DNA from: Sphingobium quisquiliarum P25
GTDB lineage: Bacteria; Pseudomonadota; Alphaproteobacteria; Sphingomonadales; Sphingomonadaceae
Direction: 5' to 3'
DNA: 64,000 nt
Assembly (NCBI RefSeq): GCF_000445065.1
Contig: NZ_ATHO01000009.1
Span: 1 to 64,000, forward strand
The notes below the pieces were generated by a model that was given only the letters and a program-made list of their open reading frames with translations, had not been told where the DNA came from and made no database searches. The position numbers and the translations under genes are program-made. Below are positions 16,564-25,638 of this stretch, piece after piece; within the stretch, counting starts at the first letter, position 1, and each line of letters begins with the position of its first letter.

Positions 16564-17979
16564 TCAACCGATCCAGTAGGGGACGATCTGCCGGTTGTCG
16601 GGATCGACGCGGATCGGACGGTCCGCCGGAGGGAAGGCGCGCTGATCGCAACCCTGGCGCGAGCAGAGGCGGCAGGTGATGCCGATGGGCGTCGCCGCGC
16701 CCTCCATCTCCAGTTGAAGGCCATCGGCATAGACGAAGTTCGCCGCATGCGCGATTTCGCAGCCCAATACCACGGCGTAGCGGCGCGGCGTGCGCGAATA
16801 GCTGCCCGACGGCTTCACCAGCCCCTTCGCCATGGAAACATAGCGGACGCCGTCGGGGGTTTCACCCAGTTGCACGTTGATGCGGTCGGGAATGGCGACC
16901 GCTTCATGCACGTTCCAGAGCGGGCATGCGCCGCCGAAGCGGGCGAATTGCAGGCGGGTGGCGCTGTGCCGCTTCGTGATATTGCCAGCCATGTCGACGC
17001 GGCAGAAGAAGAAGGGAATGCCGCGCAGGCCGGGCCGCTGGAGCGTCGAAAGCCGATGGCATGCCTGTTCGAAGCTCACACCGAAACGGCGGGCCAGCCG
17101 GTCGATATCGTGGCGAACTTCCCGCGCCGCCGCGCGGAATTGCGCATAGGGCATCAGCAGCGCGCCCGCGGCATAATTGCCAAGGCCGATGGCGAGCAGC
17201 CGGTCCGCGCCCTCGACGGGCAGGGCGGCACGGTTCACCACATCGGCGATCACTGCCTGCCCCTCCAGCATCATAAGCTGGTGCGACAGCATGAACTTGC
17301 GGCTTTCGGTGGGCAGCGCCGCATTCACGAACAGCCGCCGGTCCGCCGAGGAATAAGCGCGCAGGGCGGAATCGGGCGTGTCCGCGATCAGCGTTTCGAT
17401 GCCATGACGCCGCGCCAGCGCTTCGACCAGCATGCCTTCGTCCAACACCTGCCCGGCGGTGAAGCTGGACGCCATGTCCTCCGCCAGGCAATCGAGCGCG
17501 TGGACATAATTGCCCGCCTCATGAAACCAGTCCCGCGCCGCTTCCCAGGGGAGGCGGGCCTGCACCTCATGATCGTTGGCGATCGCTTCCTCGATCATGT
17601 TGATCCGCTCATTGGCGCGCATATGAGCGTTGTAGAGATCGATGTAGCGGGCGGCGAATTCCGGGAATTGCAAGTGCAGCTTTTCGATCCGTTCCGGCTC
17701 CATCAAAGGACCGGGCAGTTCGGGGTGGGCAAGCGCATAGGTAAAGGCGCCGAGAAGCTGCTCCTCCTCCCGGCTGTCGAAGCTTGCCCAGTCGGTGGGA
17801 AAGGCGCTGGCGACGGCGGCCTTCACCTTGGCGGTCAGGGGGCGATCGTCGTTTTCAAGCTGGCTGAGATAGGACACGGAAATGCCCAGCGCCTGCGCCA
17901 TGGTGGCCTGATCCATCCGGTGGTCCAGACGGAGCTGGCGCAGCCGCGGTCCTGCGAAAATGCGATTGCCTCGTGCCAT
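16564..17979 (-). CDS. pccR: ScfR-family (PccR-like) transcriptional regulator of propionyl-CoA genes
   Basis: XRE-type helix-turn-helix at about residues 10-64 (MDQATMAQALGISVSYLSQLEN). It is followed by a long IrrE-N-like region and a C-terminal ScfR domain (short-chain fatty acyl-CoA regulator) with a cysteine cluster CRLCSRQGC near the end. 471 aa from the ATG at 17979; the frame is open 17 codons further up, but that extension is translated from the operator cluster and starts without a ribosome site. It is divergent from pccB, as is PccR of Rhodobacter sphaeroides, which activates pccB in response to propionyl-CoA status. Ligand and mode here are inferred. Confidence 0.85.
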   Translation of the reverse strand: MARGNRIFAGPRLRQLRLDHRMDQATMAQALGISVSYLSQLENDDRPLTAKVKAAVASAFPTDWASFDSREEEQLLGAFTYALAHPELPGPLMEPERIEKLHLQFPEFAARYIDLYNAHMRANERINMIEEAIANDHEVQARLPWEAARDWFHEAGNYVHALDCLAEDMASSFTAGQVLDEGMLVEALARRHGIETLIADTPDSALRAYSSADRRLFVNAALPTESRKFMLSHQLMMLEGQAVIADVVNRAALPVEGADRLLAIGLGNYAAGALLMPYAQFRAAAREVRHDIDRLARRFGVSFEQACHRLSTLQRPGLRGIPFFFCRVDMAGNITKRHSATRLQFARFGGACPLWNVHEAVAIPDRINVQLGETPDGVRYVSMAKGLVKPSGSYSRTPRRYAVVLGCEIAHAANFVYADGLQLEMEGAATPIGITCRLCSRQGCDQRAFPPADRPIRVDPDNRQIVPYWIG

Positions 17980-17992
17980 GTCTCGCCCATAA

Positions 17993-18037
17993 TTTGCGAA
18001 ATGGTGATTTGCAAATTGGCAAATTTGCATTTGCGAA
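17993..18037. promoter_or_regulatory. Cluster of TTTGCAAA-like operators between pccR and pccB
   Basis: Within 45 bp are TTTGCGAA (17993), TTTGCAAA (18008), TTGGCAAA (18016), TTTGCATT (18024) and TTTGCGAA (18030). R. sphaeroides PccR is reported to need TTTGCAAA-type boxes upstream of pccB. The location between the divergent regulator and its presumed target, and the AT-rich composition in an otherwise GC-rich region, support this as the PccR binding site, with autoregulation likely. Confidence 0.75.
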
Positions 18038-18099
18038 AATTGTAAAAAGCGGGAAGGGGCAGATATAGCCGTCCGCCGTCACCGGAGAGATATTCTAAT

Positions 18100-19632
18100 A
18101 TGTCGAAGCTCGCCATCATCGAACAGCTGGAAGCCAAGAGGGACGCCGCGCGCCTGGGCGGCGGCCAGCGCCGCATCGACGCGCAGCATGCCAAGGGCAA
18201 GCTGACCGCGCGGGAGCGCCTGGAAGTGCTGCTGGACGAAGACAGCTTCGAAGAACTGGATATGTATGTCGAGCATAATTGCATCGACTTCGGCATGGAC
18301 GAGCAGCATATCCCCGGCGACGGCGTCGTCACCGGATCGGGCACGATCAACGGCCGCCTTGTTTATGTCTTCAGTCAGGATTTCACGGTCTATGGCGGTG
18401 CTGTGTCGGAACGGCACGCCATGAAGATCTGCAAGATCATGGACATGGCGCTGAAGGTCGGCGCGCCGGTCATCGGCCTCAACGATTCCGGCGGCGCGCG
18501 CATTCAGGAAGGCGTGGCTTCGCTCGCGGGCTATGCCGAAATCTTCCAGCGCAACGTGCTGGCGTCGGGCGTGGTGCCGCAGATCAGCGTCATCATGGGG
18601 CCCTGCGCGGGCGGCGCGGTCTATTCGCCTGCCATGACCGACTTCATCTTCATGGTGAAGGATTCGAGCTTCATGTTCGTGACCGGTCCGGACGTGGTGA
18701 AGACCGTTACCAACGAGCTGGTGACCCAGGAGGAACTGGGCGGCGCGGTGACGCACACGACCAAGTCGGGCGTCGCGGACGTGGCGTTCGAAAATGATAT
18801 CGAAGCGCTGCTGTCGGTCCGTGATTTCGTGGACTTCCTGCCCGCCTCCAACAAGGAGCCTGTGCCGGAGCGTCCCAGCGCCGATCCGTGGGACCGCATC
18901 GAGGAAAGCCTGGATACGCTGATCCCCGCCAATGCGAACCAGCCCTATGACATGCATGAGCTGATCCGCAAGGTCGTGGATGAAGGCGACTTTTTCGAGG
19001 TGCAGCCCGCCCATGCCGCCAACATCATCTGCGGTTTCGGCCGGATCGAAGGCAAGACGGTGGGCATCATCGCCAACCAGCCGATGGTGCTGGCGGGCGT
19101 GCTCGACATCAACTCGTCGAAGAAGGCGGGCCGCTTCGTGCGCTTCTGCGATGCGTTCGAAATCCCGATCGTGACCTTCGTCGACGTGCCGGGATTCCTG
19201 CCGGGCACCGCTCAGGAACATTCGGGCATCATCAAGCATGGCGCGAAGCTGCTGTTCGCCTATGCCGAAGCGACCGTGCCGAAGATCACCGTCATCACGC
19301 GCAAGGCCTATGGCGGCGCCTATGACGTCATGTCGTCAAAGCATCTGCGCGGCGACCTCAACTATGCCTGGCCCACCGCCGAAATCGCGGTGATGGGCGC
19401 GAAGGGCGCGGTGGAGATCATCTTCCGCGGCAAGACGCCGGAAGAGATCGCGGAGAAGACCAAGGAATATGAGGACCGCTTTGCCAACCCCTTCGTGGCG
19501 GCTAGCAAGGGCTTCATCGACGAGGTGATCCAGCCGCACTCGACCCGCAAGCGGATCGCCCTTGGCCTGCGCAAGCTGCGCAACAAGGCGCTGGAGAATC
19601 CGTGGAAGAAGCACGACAATATTCCGCTGTGA
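18100..19632 (+). CDS. pccB: Propionyl-CoA carboxylase beta (carboxyltransferase) subunit
   Basis: Carboxyltransferase half of biotin-dependent propionyl-CoA carboxylase, producing methylmalonyl-CoA. 510 aa with the crotonase-like N- and C-domains: [24 protein letters not shown] and, in the C-half, [13 protein letters not shown] and [22 protein letters not shown] lies upstream of the ATG. First gene of the module that continues mce-mcm-bioB-pccA and is probably activated by the divergent PccR. Confidence 0.95.
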
Positions 19633-19697: not shown

Positions 19698-20138
19698 ATG
19701 AAACTCGGCCGCTTGAACCATATCGGCGTGGCGACGCCCTCTCTGGAGGCATCGCTGGCTTATTATCGCGATGTGATGGGCGCGACGCTGACGCACGAAC
19801 CCTTCGACCTGCCCGCGCAGGGCGTGAAGGTCTGCTTCGTCGATACGCCGGGTGAGAATGGCACCCAGGGCACGCAGATCGAACTGATCGAGCCGCTGGG
19901 TGAGAACTCGCCGATCCACGGCTTCATCGCCAAGAACCCGGCGGGCGGGCAGCATCATATGTGCTATGAAGTGCCCGACATTCACGAGGCCAAGGCCTGG
20001 TTCGAAGGGCTGGGCAAGAAAGTGCTGGGCGAACCGCGCATCGGGGCGCACGGGACGCTGATCTTCTTCGTCCACCCCAAGGACATGAACGGGGTGCTGA
20101 CCGAGATCATGGAAACGCCGAAAGAAGGGGCGCACTGA
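19698..20138 (+). CDS. mce: Methylmalonyl-CoA epimerase
   Basis: Converts (S)- to (R)-methylmalonyl-CoA, the substrate of the mutase encoded next. 146 aa of the vicinal-oxygen-chelate fold: [20 protein letters not shown] at the N-terminus (metal His), [13 protein letters not shown] (second metal His) and [15 protein letters not shown] with the terminal metal Glu. Normal length and expected pathway context. Confidence 0.95.
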
Positions 20139-20220: not shown

Positions 20221-20229
20221 AGAATGGAA

Positions 20230-22383
20230 GTGACCGACAAGCCGACGCTGGACCAGTGGGCCGCCGCCGCCGCCAAGGAGGTGAAGGGCAAGGACCTGAA
20301 CTGGGAAACCCCGGAAGGGATCACCGTCAAGCCGCTCTATACGGCGCAGGACGTGACCGTCGACCCCGGCCTGCCCGGCTTCGCGCCCTTCACGCGCGGC
20401 GTGCGCGCATCCATGTATGCGGGCCGTCCGTGGACCATCCGCCAATATGCGGGCTTTTCCACCGCCGAGGAATCCAACGCTTTCTACCGCCGCAACCTGG
20501 CCGCAGGTCAGAAGGGCCTCAGCGTCGCCTTCGACCTTGCGACGCATCGCGGCTATGACAGCGACCATCCCCGCGTCGTGGGCGACGTCGGCAAGGCGGG
20601 CGTCGCGATCGACACGATCGAGGACATGAAGATCCTGTTCGACGGCATTCCGCTCGACCAGATGTCGGTTTCCATGACGATGAACGGCGCGGTGATCCCG
20701 ATCCTCGCCTTCTTCATCGTCGCGGGCGAGGAGCAGGGGGTCGAGCGCAAGCTGCTGGACGGGACCATTCAGAACGACATTCTGAAGGAGTTCATGGTCC
20801 GCAACACCTATATCTACCCGCCCGAACCGAGCATGCGGATCATCTCGGACATTTTCGGCTATACCAGCCGCGAGATGCCCAAGTTCAACAGCATTTCCAT
20901 TTCCGGCTACCATATGCAGGAAGCCGGTGCGACGCAGGTGCAGGAACTGGCCTTCACCATCGCCGATGGCATTGAATATGTGAAATATGGCGTGGCGTCG
21001 GGCCTTGACATCGACAAGTTCGCCGGGCGCCTCAGCTTCTTCTTCGCGATCGGCATGAACTTCTTCATGGAGGTGGCCAAGCTGCGTGCCGCGCGCGTGT
21101 TGTGGCACCGCGCCATGACGAAGCTGGGCGCGCAGGATGAGCGCAGCAAGATGCTGCGCACGCACTGCCAGACGTCAGGCGTGTCGCTGACGGAGCAGGA
21201 CCCCTATAACAACGTCATCCGCACCACGATCGAGGCGATGGCGGCGATGCTGGGCGGCACCCAGTCGCTGCACACCAATGCGCTTGACGAAGCGATCGCG
21301 CTCCCGACCGACTTTTCCGCCCGGATCGCGCGCAACACGCAGATCGTGATCCAGGAAGAGACGGGGATGACCAAGGTCGTCGATCCCCTTGGCGGCAGCT
21401 ATTATGTCGAAGCGCTGACCCAGCAACTGGTCGACGCCGCGCAGGAAATCATCGACCGCGTCGAGAGCGAAGGCGGCATGGCCAAGGCCGTGGCGGCAGG
21501 CTGGCCCAAGGCGATGATCGAGGAAGCGGCGGCGGCGCGGCAGGCGCGGGTCGACCGTGGCGAGGATGTCATTGTCGGCGTCAACAAATACCGCCTTGCT
21601 AATGAAGACCTGCTGGAAACGCTGGAGGTCGACAACAGCAAGGTTCGGGAGGCGCAGATCGCCCGCATCAACAAGGTGAAGGCGGAACGCGACGAAGCTA
21701 GGTGCCAGGCGGCGTTGCAGGCGCTGCGCGACGGTGCGGCCCGGCCTTCCAGCATCGAGAATAATCTTCTCGCCCTGGCGGTGGAATGCGCCCGCGCCCG
21801 CGCTACGCTGGGTGAGATTTCCTCCGCCATGGAGGACAGCTTTGACCGGTATGGCACGGTGCCGACGCCTGTGAAGGGCGTCTATTCCAAGCCTTACGCG
21901 CAGGACAGCCGCTGGAAACAGGTTCTTGACGGTGTGCAGGCCGTCGAGCGGCGCCTCGGCCGCAAGCCGAAACTGCTCATCGCCAAGATGGGACAGGACG
22001 GCCACGACCGGGGCGCCAACGTGATCGCCTCCGCCTTCGGAGACATGGGCTTTGACGTGGTGTCGGGTCCGCTGTTCCAGACGCCAGAGGAAACGGTTGT
22101 GCTGGCGCTCGACAGCGGCGTGGACGTGGTGGGCGCGTCATCGCTGGCGGCCGGTCACAAGACGCTGATCCCCGAACTCATCAGGCAGCTTCGGGAAAAG
22201 GGCCGCAACGACATCAAGGTGATCGCGGGCGGCGTCATCCCGCCGCAGGATTACGACTTCCTCCGTGACGCGGGCGTGCAGGGCATTTATGGACCAGGCT
22301 CCAATGTCGTGGAATGCGCAGCCGATGTGCTGCGCCTCCTCGGCCACAACATGCCCCCGGCGGGGCTGGAGGAAGCCGCTTGA
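20230..22383 (+). CDS. mcm: Methylmalonyl-CoA mutase
   Basis: B12-dependent isomerase turning (R)-methylmalonyl-CoA into succinyl-CoA. 717 aa, a single-chain mutase with the substrate TIM barrel ([21 protein letters not shown]-type region, [14 protein letters not shown]) and a C-terminal cobalamin domain with DGHDRGA; His592 is the lower axial ligand. GTG at 20230 is preferred ([10 protein letters not shown]): GGAG is exactly 7 nt upstream, whereas the ATG at 20224 would leave only one base after GGAG. Lies between mce and bioB. Confidence 0.95.
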
Positions 22384-22486: not shown

Positions 22487-23488
22487 ATGACCGCTACAGC
22501 TCCCCGCACCGACTGGACCCGCGACGAGATTGCCGCGCTGTTCGACCTGCCCTTCAACGACCTGCTGTTCGAGGCGCAGTCGATCCACCGCGCGAACTTT
22601 CCGCGCAATGAGGTTCAGCTTTCCACCCTGCTGTCGATCAAGACCGGTGGATGCCCGGAGGATTGCGGCTATTGCAGCCAGTCCACCGAGGCGGAAAGCG
22701 GGCTCAAGGCCACCAAGCTGATGGACGTGCAGGCCGTGCTGCAAGCGGCGGCGCAGGCCAAGGATCACGGCTCGGGCCGTTTCTGCATGGGCGCGGCGTG
22801 GCGCAATCCCAAGGAACGCGACATGCCCAAGCTCATCGAGATGGTGAAGGGCGTGCGCCAGATGGGCATGGAAACCTGCATGACGCTGGGTATGCTGTCG
22901 GCCGATCAGGCGAAGCAACTCGCAGATGCGGGGCTCGATTATTATAATCATAATATCGACACCTCGCCGGAAAATTACGCCAACGTCATCACCACGCGGA
23001 CCTTCGCGGACCGGATCGAGACGCTGGAAAATGTGCGTACGGCAGGAATCAACGTCTGCTGCGGCGGGATCGTCGGCATGGGCGAGACGCGGTCTGACCG
23101 CATCGGGTTCCTCCATGCGCTCGGCACCATGCCGCATCCCGAAAGCGTGCCGATCAACGCGTTGGTGCCGGTGGCCGGAACCGTGTTGGGCGACATGCTG
23201 AAGGACACGCCGCTCGCCAAGATCGACGAGGTGGAGTTCGTCCGCACGGTCGCGGTGGCACGGATCGTGATGCCGCAGTCGATGGTACGGCTTTCCGCCG
23301 GGCGTGAAAGCATGAGCGAAGCCTGTCAGGCGCTCTGCTTCATGGCGGGGGCGAACAGCATCTTCACTGGCGACAAGCTGCTGACGGCGGCCAATGCTGG
23401 CGATGACAAGGACAGCGCGCTGCTTTCGAAGCTCGGGCTGACGCCGATGATGGCGCAGCCGCATGGGCATTTGGAGGCTGCTGAATAG
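22487..23488 (+). CDS. bioB: Biotin synthase
   Basis: Radical SAM enzyme inserting sulfur into dethiobiotin. 333 aa with the CxxxCxxC cluster site in [14 protein letters not shown], the ASRSQ-like [2Fe-2S] and substrate segments ([24 protein letters not shown]) and the conserved Arg in VRLSAGRE. It stands alone, without bioF, bioD or bioA, between mcm and pccA, the gene for a biotin-carrying subunit. The logical reading is co-expression of cofactor supply with the carboxylase (inference). Confidence 0.95.
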
Positions 23489-23652: not shown

Positions 23653-25638
23653 ATGGCAATCACCAAGATCCTGATCGCAAACCGTGGCGAAATTGCGTGC
23701 CGTGTCATCCGCACCGCGCGGAAGATGGGCATCAAGACCGTGGCGGTCTATTCGGACGCGGACGCGCGCAGCCCTCATGTCCTGATGGCGGACGAAGCCG
23801 TGCACCTTGGCCCGCCGCCTGCCGCGCAGTCCTATCTGCTGGCCGACAAGATTATCGAGGCCTGCAAGGCGACCGGCGCCGATGCGGTGCACCCGGGCTA
23901 TGGCTTCCTGTCGGAGCGTGAGAGTTTCCGCAAGGCGCTGGACGAGGCAGGGATCATCTTCGTCGGCCCTCCCGCCAACGCCATCGCCGCCATGGGCGAC
24001 AAGATCGAGTCGAAAAAGCTCGCCAAGGCAGCGGGCGTCAATGTCGTCCCCGGCTTTGTCGGTGTGATCGAGGACACCGAACATGCCGTCCGCATCTCTA
24101 ACGAGATCGGTTATCCGGTGATGATGAAGGCGTCGGCGGGCGGCGGCGGCAAGGGCATGCGCCTTGCTTATTCCGAGCAGGACGTCCGGGAGGGCTTTGA
24201 GGCGACGAAGCGTGAAGGCCTCGCCAGCTTCGGCGATGACCGCGTGTTCATCGAGAAGTTCATCGAAAGCCCGCGCCACATCGAAATCCAGATATTGGGC
24301 GATCAGCACGGCAATATCGTTTACCTGAACGAGCGCGAATGTTCGATCCAGCGCCGCCACCAGAAGGTGGTCGAGGAAGCGCCTTCGCCCTTTGTCAGCC
24401 CCGAAATGCGCAAGAAGATGGGCGAGCAGTGCGTCGCCCTGGCGCGCGCGGTCGGCTATTTCAGCGCGGGCACGGTCGAACTGATCGTGTCGGGCGCGGA
24501 CAAGACGGGCGACGGCTTCTACTTCCTGGAAATGAACACCCGTTTGCAGGTCGAGCATCCGGTGACGGAAGAGATCACCGGCCTTGATCTGGTCGAGCAG
24601 ATGATCCGCGTCGCCAATGGCGAGGAACTGTCCTTCCGTCAGGAGGATGTGAAGATCAACGGCTGGTCGATCGAGAACCGCGTCTATGCCGAAGATCCCT
24701 ATCGCGGCTTCCTGCCTTCCACGGGCCGCCTGATCCGCTACAATCCGCCCGAAGCGGTCGATGGCGTGCGCGTCGATGACGGCGTGGTCGAAGGCGGCGA
24801 AGTGTCGATGTTCTACGACCCGATGATCGCCAAGCTGATCACCTGGGCTCCCACCCGCCTGGAAGCGATCGACAAGCAGATCGCGGCGCTCGACCGGTTC
24901 GAGATCGAAGGGCCGGGGCACAATATCGACTTCGTGTCCGCGCTAATGCAGCATGAGCGTTTCCGTTCCGGCAACATCACCACCGGCTTTATCGCGGAGG
25001 AATATCCTGAAGGCTTCACCGGCGCGCCCGCATCCGAAACGTTGCTGAAGCGGCTGTCGGCCATCGGTGCCTTCGCCGCCATGGCACAGGCGGACCGCGC
25101 GCGCCGTATCGACGGTCAGCTTGGCAAGAAGCTGCGCGCACCGACCGGCTGGCAGGTGAAGATCGGCGACGCGGTGCATGATGTCGTCATCAATGGCGAT
25201 GACGTCACTGTTGATGGCGAAGCGGTTGACATGGCGCTGGAATATACCCCCGGCGATCGCCTGATCGAAGCGGAGTTTGGCGAGGAGCAACTGGCGGTCA
25301 GGATCGCGCCGGTGCGGGCCGGGTTCGTGCTGACGGCTCATGGCGCCAGCCACAAGCTGCGTATCCTGCCCGCTCATGCGGCGCCGCTTGCCAAACATAT
25401 GATCGAAAAGATCCCGCCGGATCTTTCGCGCTTCCTGATTTGCCCTATGCCCGGCCTGCTCGTCGCGCTCAATGTCAAGGAAGGCGACAAGGTCGAGGTT
25501 GGTCAGCCGCTGGCGGTGATCGAGGCGATGAAGATGGAAAATATCCTGCGCGCGCAAAAGGCGGGTGTGGTGAAAAGCGTGTCGGCGGCACAGGGCGAGA
25601 GCCTGCCGGTGGACGCGATCATTCTGGAACTGGAATAG
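23653..25638 (+). CDS. pccA: Propionyl-/acetyl-CoA carboxylase alpha subunit (biotin carboxylase + BCCP)
   Basis: Carries the biotin carboxylase domain (ILIANRGEIACRVIRTA start; ATP-grasp KASAGGGGKGMR; EMNTRLQVEHPVTE) and a C-terminal biotinyl domain with EAMKMEN, biotinylated Lys627. 661 aa, the usual length for PccA. AAGGA sits 6 nt before the ATG. The partner PccB is encoded 4 kb upstream in the same direction. Confidence 0.95.
   Translation: MAITKILIANRGEIACRVIRTARKMGIKTVAVYSDADARSPHVLMADEAVHLGPPPAAQSYLLADKIIEACKATGADAVHPGYGFLSERESFRKALDEAGIIFVGPPANAIAAMGDKIESKKLAKAAGVNVVPGFVGVIEDTEHAVRISNEIGYPVMMKASAGGGGKGMRLAYSEQDVREGFEATKREGLASFGDDRVFIEKFIESPRHIEIQILGDQHGNIVYLNERECSIQRRHQKVVEEAPSPFVSPEMRKKMGEQCVALARAVGYFSAGTVELIVSGADKTGDGFYFLEMNTRLQVEHPVTEEITGLDLVEQMIRVANGEELSFRQEDVKINGWSIENRVYAEDPYRGFLPSTGRLIRYNPPEAVDGVRVDDGVVEGGEVSMFYDPMIAKLITWAPTRLEAIDKQIAALDRFEIEGPGHNIDFVSALMQHERFRSGNITTGFIAEEYPEGFTGAPASETLLKRLSAIGAFAAMAQADRARRIDGQLGKKLRAPTGWQVKIGDAVHDVVINGDDVTVDGEAVDMALEYTPGDRLIEAEFGEEQLAVRIAPVRAGFVLTAHGASHKLRILPAHAAPLAKHMIEKIPPDLSRFLICPMPGLLVALNVKEGDKVEVGQPLAVIEAMKMENILRAQKAGVVKSVSAAQGESLPVDAIILELE

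Follow-up and report, generated by a model that had tools for sequence, protein, structure and literature searches.

Carter and Alber (2015) reportedly described, upstream of pccB in Rhodobacter (Cereibacter) sphaeroides, a PccR site made of two TTTGCAA boxes 4 nt apart. PccR of this organism is an ScfR regulator that controls the propionyl-CoA carboxylase genes (PMC12632250, PMC10370305). It carries a tryptophan at the position of Phe155 of the Mycobacterium tuberculosis PrpR (MtPrpR), and it was proposed that a clash of propionyl-CoA with this gating residue activates the protein (PMC6765138). In the case of MtPrpR, DNase I protection was reported over TTTGCAAA-N-TTTGCgAA (PMC3420887). In Sphingomonadaceae, propionyl-CoA arises when pollutants or drugs are degraded, e.g., ibuprofen in Rhizorhabdus; full growth of Rhizorhabdus wittichii MPO218 on ibuprofen requires pccB, and the pcc gene set of R. 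wittichii is reported to occur in other members of the family as well (PMC9195938).

Within the open literature that we searched, neither a PccR operator in Sphingomonadaceae nor a link between PccR and sucC was found; an earlier prediction may be contained in the primary R. sphaeroides paper, which lay outside the search.

The pccR-pccB locus and its box array

The window, i.e., the whole stretch of 64,000 nucleotides from Sphingobium quisquiliarum P25 that was analysed, carries a gene for an ScfR-family regulator and, in the opposite direction, a set of propionyl-CoA and methylmalonyl-CoA pathway genes, with an array of short boxes in between:

16564..17979, - strand: pccR, ScfR-family regulator (HTH_3, IrrE-like M78 domain, ScfR C-terminal domain)
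17993..18000, + strand: box 1, TTTGCGAA (TTCGCAAA on the - strand), closest to pccR and followed by a 7-nt spacer
18008..18015, + strand: box 2, TTTGCAAA, directly joined to box 3
18016..18023, + strand: box 3, TTGGCAAA
18024..18029, + strand: half-box or spacer TTTGCA, which is TTCACA in many relatives
18030..18037, + strand: box 5, TTTGCGAA; the starts of boxes 2-3-5 (0/8/22) resemble those of the sucC array (0/8/21)
18100..19632, + strand: pccB, propionyl-CoA carboxylase beta (carboxyltransferase) subunit (PF01039, 5.7e-200)
19698..20138, + strand: mce, methylmalonyl-CoA epimerase (TIGR03081, above cut-off)
20224..22383, + strand: mcm, methylmalonyl-CoA mutase (NF006944, above cut-off)
22487..23488, + strand: bioB, biotin synthase (TIGR00433, above cut-off)
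23653..25638, + strand: pccA, propionyl-CoA carboxylase alpha subunit (biotin carboxylase, PCC_BT and biotinyl domains; PF18140, 1.8e-25, and others)

The regulator matched PF09856 (7e-67), PF06114 (3.1e-21) and PF01381 (2.8e-8), and the domain set of the ScfR/IsaR family (HTH_3, IrrE-like and ScfR C-terminal) is complete in it. Among solved structures, the sequence search gave a single relative, M. tuberculosis PrpR (1.7e-78). In the alignment to MtPrpR, a C-x2-C-x4-C motif at residues 436-444 (Cys436, Cys439 and Cys444) and a fourth cysteine, Cys352, match the cluster cysteines described for MtPrpR (PMC6765138) and would be the ligands of a predicted [4Fe4S] cluster. The bulky residue expected of a PccR at the propionyl-CoA gating position is present as Trp145, which is aligned to Phe155 of MtPrpR (position counted from the alignment). 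Against the RamB profile NF038139, PccR scored 401.5 bits, under the equivalog cut-off of 700 bits. The ScfR domains and the profile matches of the pathway genes thus bear out an earlier note on this DNA, which had placed here a regulator of the PccR kind together with the pathway pccB-mce-mcm-bioB-pccA. In most of the Sphingomonadaceae loci fetched, pccR likewise lies next to pccB and the methylmalonyl-CoA pathway genes.

A second bioB copy, 59% identical to the first, was detected elsewhere in the genome (G000:C129), adjoining a BioY-like gene (by eye). Among close loci (L035-L087), some have an operon bioB that is 92-98% identical to that of the window, whereas in others the value is 82-84%; the latter loci keep pccB and mcm at about 89-98%, which looks like an exchange of bioB.

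The longest pccR ORF (16564-18030, - strand) starts at 18030, within the array. As the alignments of relatives begin with the first residue of MARGNR, we set the start of pccR at ATG 17979 instead, and the array is therefore intergenic, as had been claimed, between the divergent pccR and pccB; its pccR-side edge is 13 nt from the pccR start and its other edge 62 nt from the pccB start (ATG 18100). Automatic start calling could bury an operator placed like this one in coding sequence. In two other loci (L053 and L089), an inverted repeat whose arms resemble CTCGACTTCGCTCGA was seen by eye between box 1 and pccR, the boxes being intact.

The same note had counted five boxes. All of its positions are exact, but the fourth box, TTTGCATT at 18024-18031, has two mismatches to TTTGCAAA, shares 18030-18031 with box 5, and its slot in the 85 distinct 45-mers of relatives is mostly TTCACATT (36, versus 12 with TTTGCATT). 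It is thus a half-box at best, and the array consists of four boxes plus a half-box, with start-to-start distances of 15, 8 and 14 nt between the four. Among the same 45-mers, the slot of box 1 holds TTTGCAAA in 52/85 and TTTGCGAA in 16/85, while that of box 3 holds TTGGCAAA (14), TTAGCAAA (12), TTCGCAAA (10) or TTTGCAAA (9). In boxes 1 and 5 the sixth base is G, which had been taken for a special variant but lost that standing: TTTGCGAA is TTCGCAAA on the other strand, so that this G corresponds to the C at position three of the common variant TTCGCAAA, and TTTGCgAA lies within the footprinted MtPrpR site (PMC3420887).

All four boxes are at most one mismatch from TTTGCAAA inside 45 bp. At the same threshold, the whole window has 11 matches versus 14.2 expected, and three simulated 4.17-Mb sequences, built on the dinucleotide frequencies of the window, contained 868 to 917 boxes each and a maximum of 2 per 45 bp. 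The unusual signal is the clustering of the boxes, without a general excess in the window.

A promoter scan gave no sigma-70-like pccB promoter, so that the place of the array relative to this promoter is a predicted one. The sole + strand match (17966-17993, 9 of 12) shares its last base with the start of box 1 and was not accepted as the pccB promoter. By eye, TTGTAA/TATAGC at 18040-18069 is a possible promoter in the window, but its TATAGC is not conserved in several relatives.

Conservation of the array and its co-occurrence with PccR

We compiled 109 loci of the family with pccR (L006-L034 and L035-L114), which gave 103 pccR-pccB intergenic stretches, or 104 with the window; six loci were dropped, at which pccB was absent from the fetched stretch (L034, L084 and L085) or pccR was cut or near the end (L079, L080 and L106). 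For a box-7nt-box-box pattern, which was picked after the sequences had been viewed, 101 of the 104 stretches exceeded the 95th percentile of their own dinucleotide shuffles. When spacings were searched without a preset pattern, 15/8 was among the best triples in 85/104. In 40 relatives whose PccR is at least 90% identical, the identity to the window is 91% for the array versus 55% (left) and 49% and 32% (right) for the flanks, flank values that are depressed by insertions as they were counted ungapped. The array is near-invariant in 41 close stretches. Dense multi-box arrays are usual in relatives, which does not support the unusual density that had been supposed for the array of the window.

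Two of the dropped loci have a thiolase-like gene opposite a PccR-like gene. In L085 this gene, and not pccB, is divergent to the PccR-like gene and the 15/8 array is still present; in L084 it stands in the place of pccB and the 15/8 array is weaker.

For the co-occurrence of boxes with PccR, 119 genomes of the family were drawn, with an ScfR match in 105 and pccB (E 1e-200) in 109. The PccR-lacking set comprised the genomes with the best-ranked pccB, 40 of about 69 that have pccB but no ScfR match of at least 40% identity, save for one genome with a match of 41% or lower if any was overlooked by eye. Box pairs (two boxes in 45 bp, within 300 nt upstream of pccB) were found in 22/28 stretches with PccR versus 0/40 without it, for which the Fisher value of 9e-13 ignores relatedness; since the presence of PccR tracks lineage, these are not independent events. 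A single box was present in 4/40 of the PccR-lacking stretches, and at least one box in 26/28 of the PccR-bearing stretches of the same draw, the other two being without any. When all 104 PccR-bearing stretches were considered, 89 had two boxes within 45 bp and 100 had at least one. Six of the 28 and 15 of the 104 stretches with PccR did not reach two near-perfect boxes in 45 bp, and therefore the motif drifts.

At the class level, we examined the upstream stretches of the best-ranked 40 ScfR relatives outside the family. In 10/40, pccB lies within about 3 kb; all ten have at least one box, and five have two boxes per 45 bp with differing spacings. Four have a true isocitrate lyase neighbour, with one box in 3/4 and two boxes in 0/4. 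Two boxes were also found in 8 of the 26 that have no pccB and no true isocitrate lyase nearby, and thus ScfRs linked to pccB are not the only ones with the box. Since multi-box arrays are seen at this level in pccB-linked and other ScfR loci, they are common; the spacing of the window array was found, among the stretches examined, in Sphingomonadaceae only. Three loci from other Alphaproteobacteria (L133, L143 and L147) have ScfR genes without a nearby pccB and carry TTTGCGAA/TTCGCAAA arrays upstream.

The genome has a second ScfR (G000:C45), which is 33% identical to PccR and adjoins isocitrate lyase; because of this neighbour, we refer to it as RamB-type. It scored 350.2 bits against NF038139, below the 700-bit equivalog cut-off. 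Within 250 nt upstream of the RamB-type genes of the family, whose RamB orthology rests on match score and not on a tree, a TTTGCRAA or TTYGCAAA box was found in 0/20. The upstream stretch of this genome's own RamB-type gene has one TTTGCACA, and several of the RamB-type stretches show, by eye, ACTTTACA and TGTAAAG-like runs in place of boxes.

A second array upstream of sucC

The earlier note had proposed to search the genome for the same box. Our search took in tandem sites, and at one mismatch or less only one further strong site came up, upstream of sucC. Both TTTGCRAA-N0-12-TTTGCRAA and TTYGCAANTTNGCAA occur at two places in the genome each, between pccR and pccB and upstream of sucC (contig C97). 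The sucC array reads TTTGCAAT TTTGCAAA GTCCG TTTGCAAA and ends 75 nt upstream of the sucC ATG (G000:C97:22784-22812, - strand; also L115 and L208), with etfB and then etfA downstream of sucC. At two mismatches, two other tandem sites were taken as chance: one (C113) lies in a plasmid-like stretch with ParA-like and replication-initiator-like genes (by eye), and the genes neighbouring the other (C144) have no evident link. The reversed-pattern control at two mismatches gave 1 match.

Across the genus, TTTGCAANTTTGCAAA was present in 38/41 genomes, with 0 matches for the reversed control, and the full 29-nt sucC array (at most 3 mismatches) in 39/41, again with 0 matches for the control; a few genomes showed one extra weak match. 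In 28/30 of the fetched loci, sucC lies downstream and the third box follows five nt on; in the remaining two (L201 and L202), sucC is outside the fetched stretch. The box pair was found before sucC in 0/28 stretches from other genera (L164-L191), seven of them from PccR-bearing genomes and one of them belonging to a 30%-identical paralogue.

The box starts of the sucC array (0/8/21) nearly coincide with those of boxes 2-3-5 before pccB (0/8/22), and TTTGCRAA comes last in both. This suggests that boxes 2-3-5 and the sucC array could be a shared activation module, to which box 1 was added on the pccR side. We lean towards a two-operon PccR regulon in this genus, in which the array TTTGCAAT TTTGCAAA N5 TTTGCRAA would have been added before sucC-etfB-etfA, with a predicted propionyl-CoA-driven rise of succinyl-CoA synthetase and electron transfer flavoprotein. 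If so, this lineage would have extended the switch of the pathway to the following metabolic step, and the sucC array makes growth of the regulon a concrete prediction for the whole genus.

Probable regulation by PccR, alternatives and comparison with described systems

Two or more TTTGCAAA-type boxes lie between regulator and target here, as in operators of the PccR type, and the array is an ordinary member of this known operator type. With a probability of about 0.87, we read it as the predicted PccR operator, i.e., a putative activator site for pccB-mce-mcm-bioB-pccA that would also serve the autoregulation of pccR. By likeness to MtPrpR and R. sphaeroides PccR, PccR would be an Fe-S, CoA-ester-sensing HTH activator, and the accumulation of propionyl-CoA would lead it to activate transcription. 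Several of its subunits may bind together, as a multimer, to boxes 2, 3 and 5 a short way before the pccB promoter; they would switch on pccB-mce-mcm-bioB-pccA, while box 1, beside the pccR start, may control pccR itself. In the genus, PccR probably also binds the array of sucC-etfB-etfA, which would couple the formation of succinyl-CoA to its consumption.

It is very unlikely that the RamB-type paralogue is the main protein bound to the array and that PccR acts elsewhere. Although the two ScfR proteins are 33% identical, and the icl1 promoter is bound by both MtPrpR and MtRamB (PMC3420887), the paralogue adjoins isocitrate lyase, and the 20 RamB-type upstream stretches have none of the TTTGCRAA/TTYGCAAA boxes, several showing TTTACA/TGTAAA-like runs instead (by eye). 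Moreover, most of the 40 genomes without pccB box pairs do have a lower-scoring RamB-like ScfR, and the array is found upstream of pccR even without a pccB neighbour (L085). The same locus, together with the weaker boxes of L084, both without pccB in the fetched stretch, would fit an array that serves the autoregulation of pccR only, with pccB controlled otherwise, and so would the closeness of box 1 to the pccR start. This reading, too, we regard as very unlikely: boxes 2-5 are on the pccB side, the spacing of 8 and then 13/14 nt recurs before sucC, in the direction of transcription and without pccR, and control of pccB by PccR has been reported in R. sphaeroides (PMC12632250). As for chance, the boxes are AT-rich and lie within an intergenic stretch, as AT-rich promoter sequence would; this origin is next to negligible in view of the simulations, with at most 2 boxes per 45 bp, the near-invariance in the 41 close stretches and the lack of box pairs in the 40 PccR-lacking genomes.

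A defined operator with conserved spacing and a paralogue promoter without the motif together provide a ready test of site choice by ScfR proteins. Compared with the two-box site that is said to precede pccB in R. sphaeroides, the Sphingobium array has four boxes at 15, 8 and 14 nt, and the operon also includes mce and bioB. The regulators themselves are alike, R. sphaeroides PccR being an ScfR regulator of propionyl-CoA carboxylase genes with the gating Trp (PMC6765138). RamB of Paracoccus denitrificans also belongs to the ScfR family, and its class 2 site has two near-identical boxes, but with an 18-bp spacer and a glyoxylate-cycle target (PMC10370305); the 20 RamB-type loci examined in Sphingomonadaceae are without TTTGCAAA boxes. 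R. wittichii MPO218 has one region with a hypothetical pccR, pccB, mceE, mutB, a biotin gene and pccA, as in the window; its biotin gene is named bioC, whereas it is bioB here, and the available part of that paper does not mention an operator (PMC9195938). The MtPrpR site between prpR and prpD shares with the Sphingobium locus the divergent regulator, the TTTGCAAA and TTTGCgAA boxes and an Fe-S/CoA-binding protein; it differs in that its two boxes are 1 nt apart and its target is the methylcitrate cycle rather than the methylmalonyl-CoA pathway.
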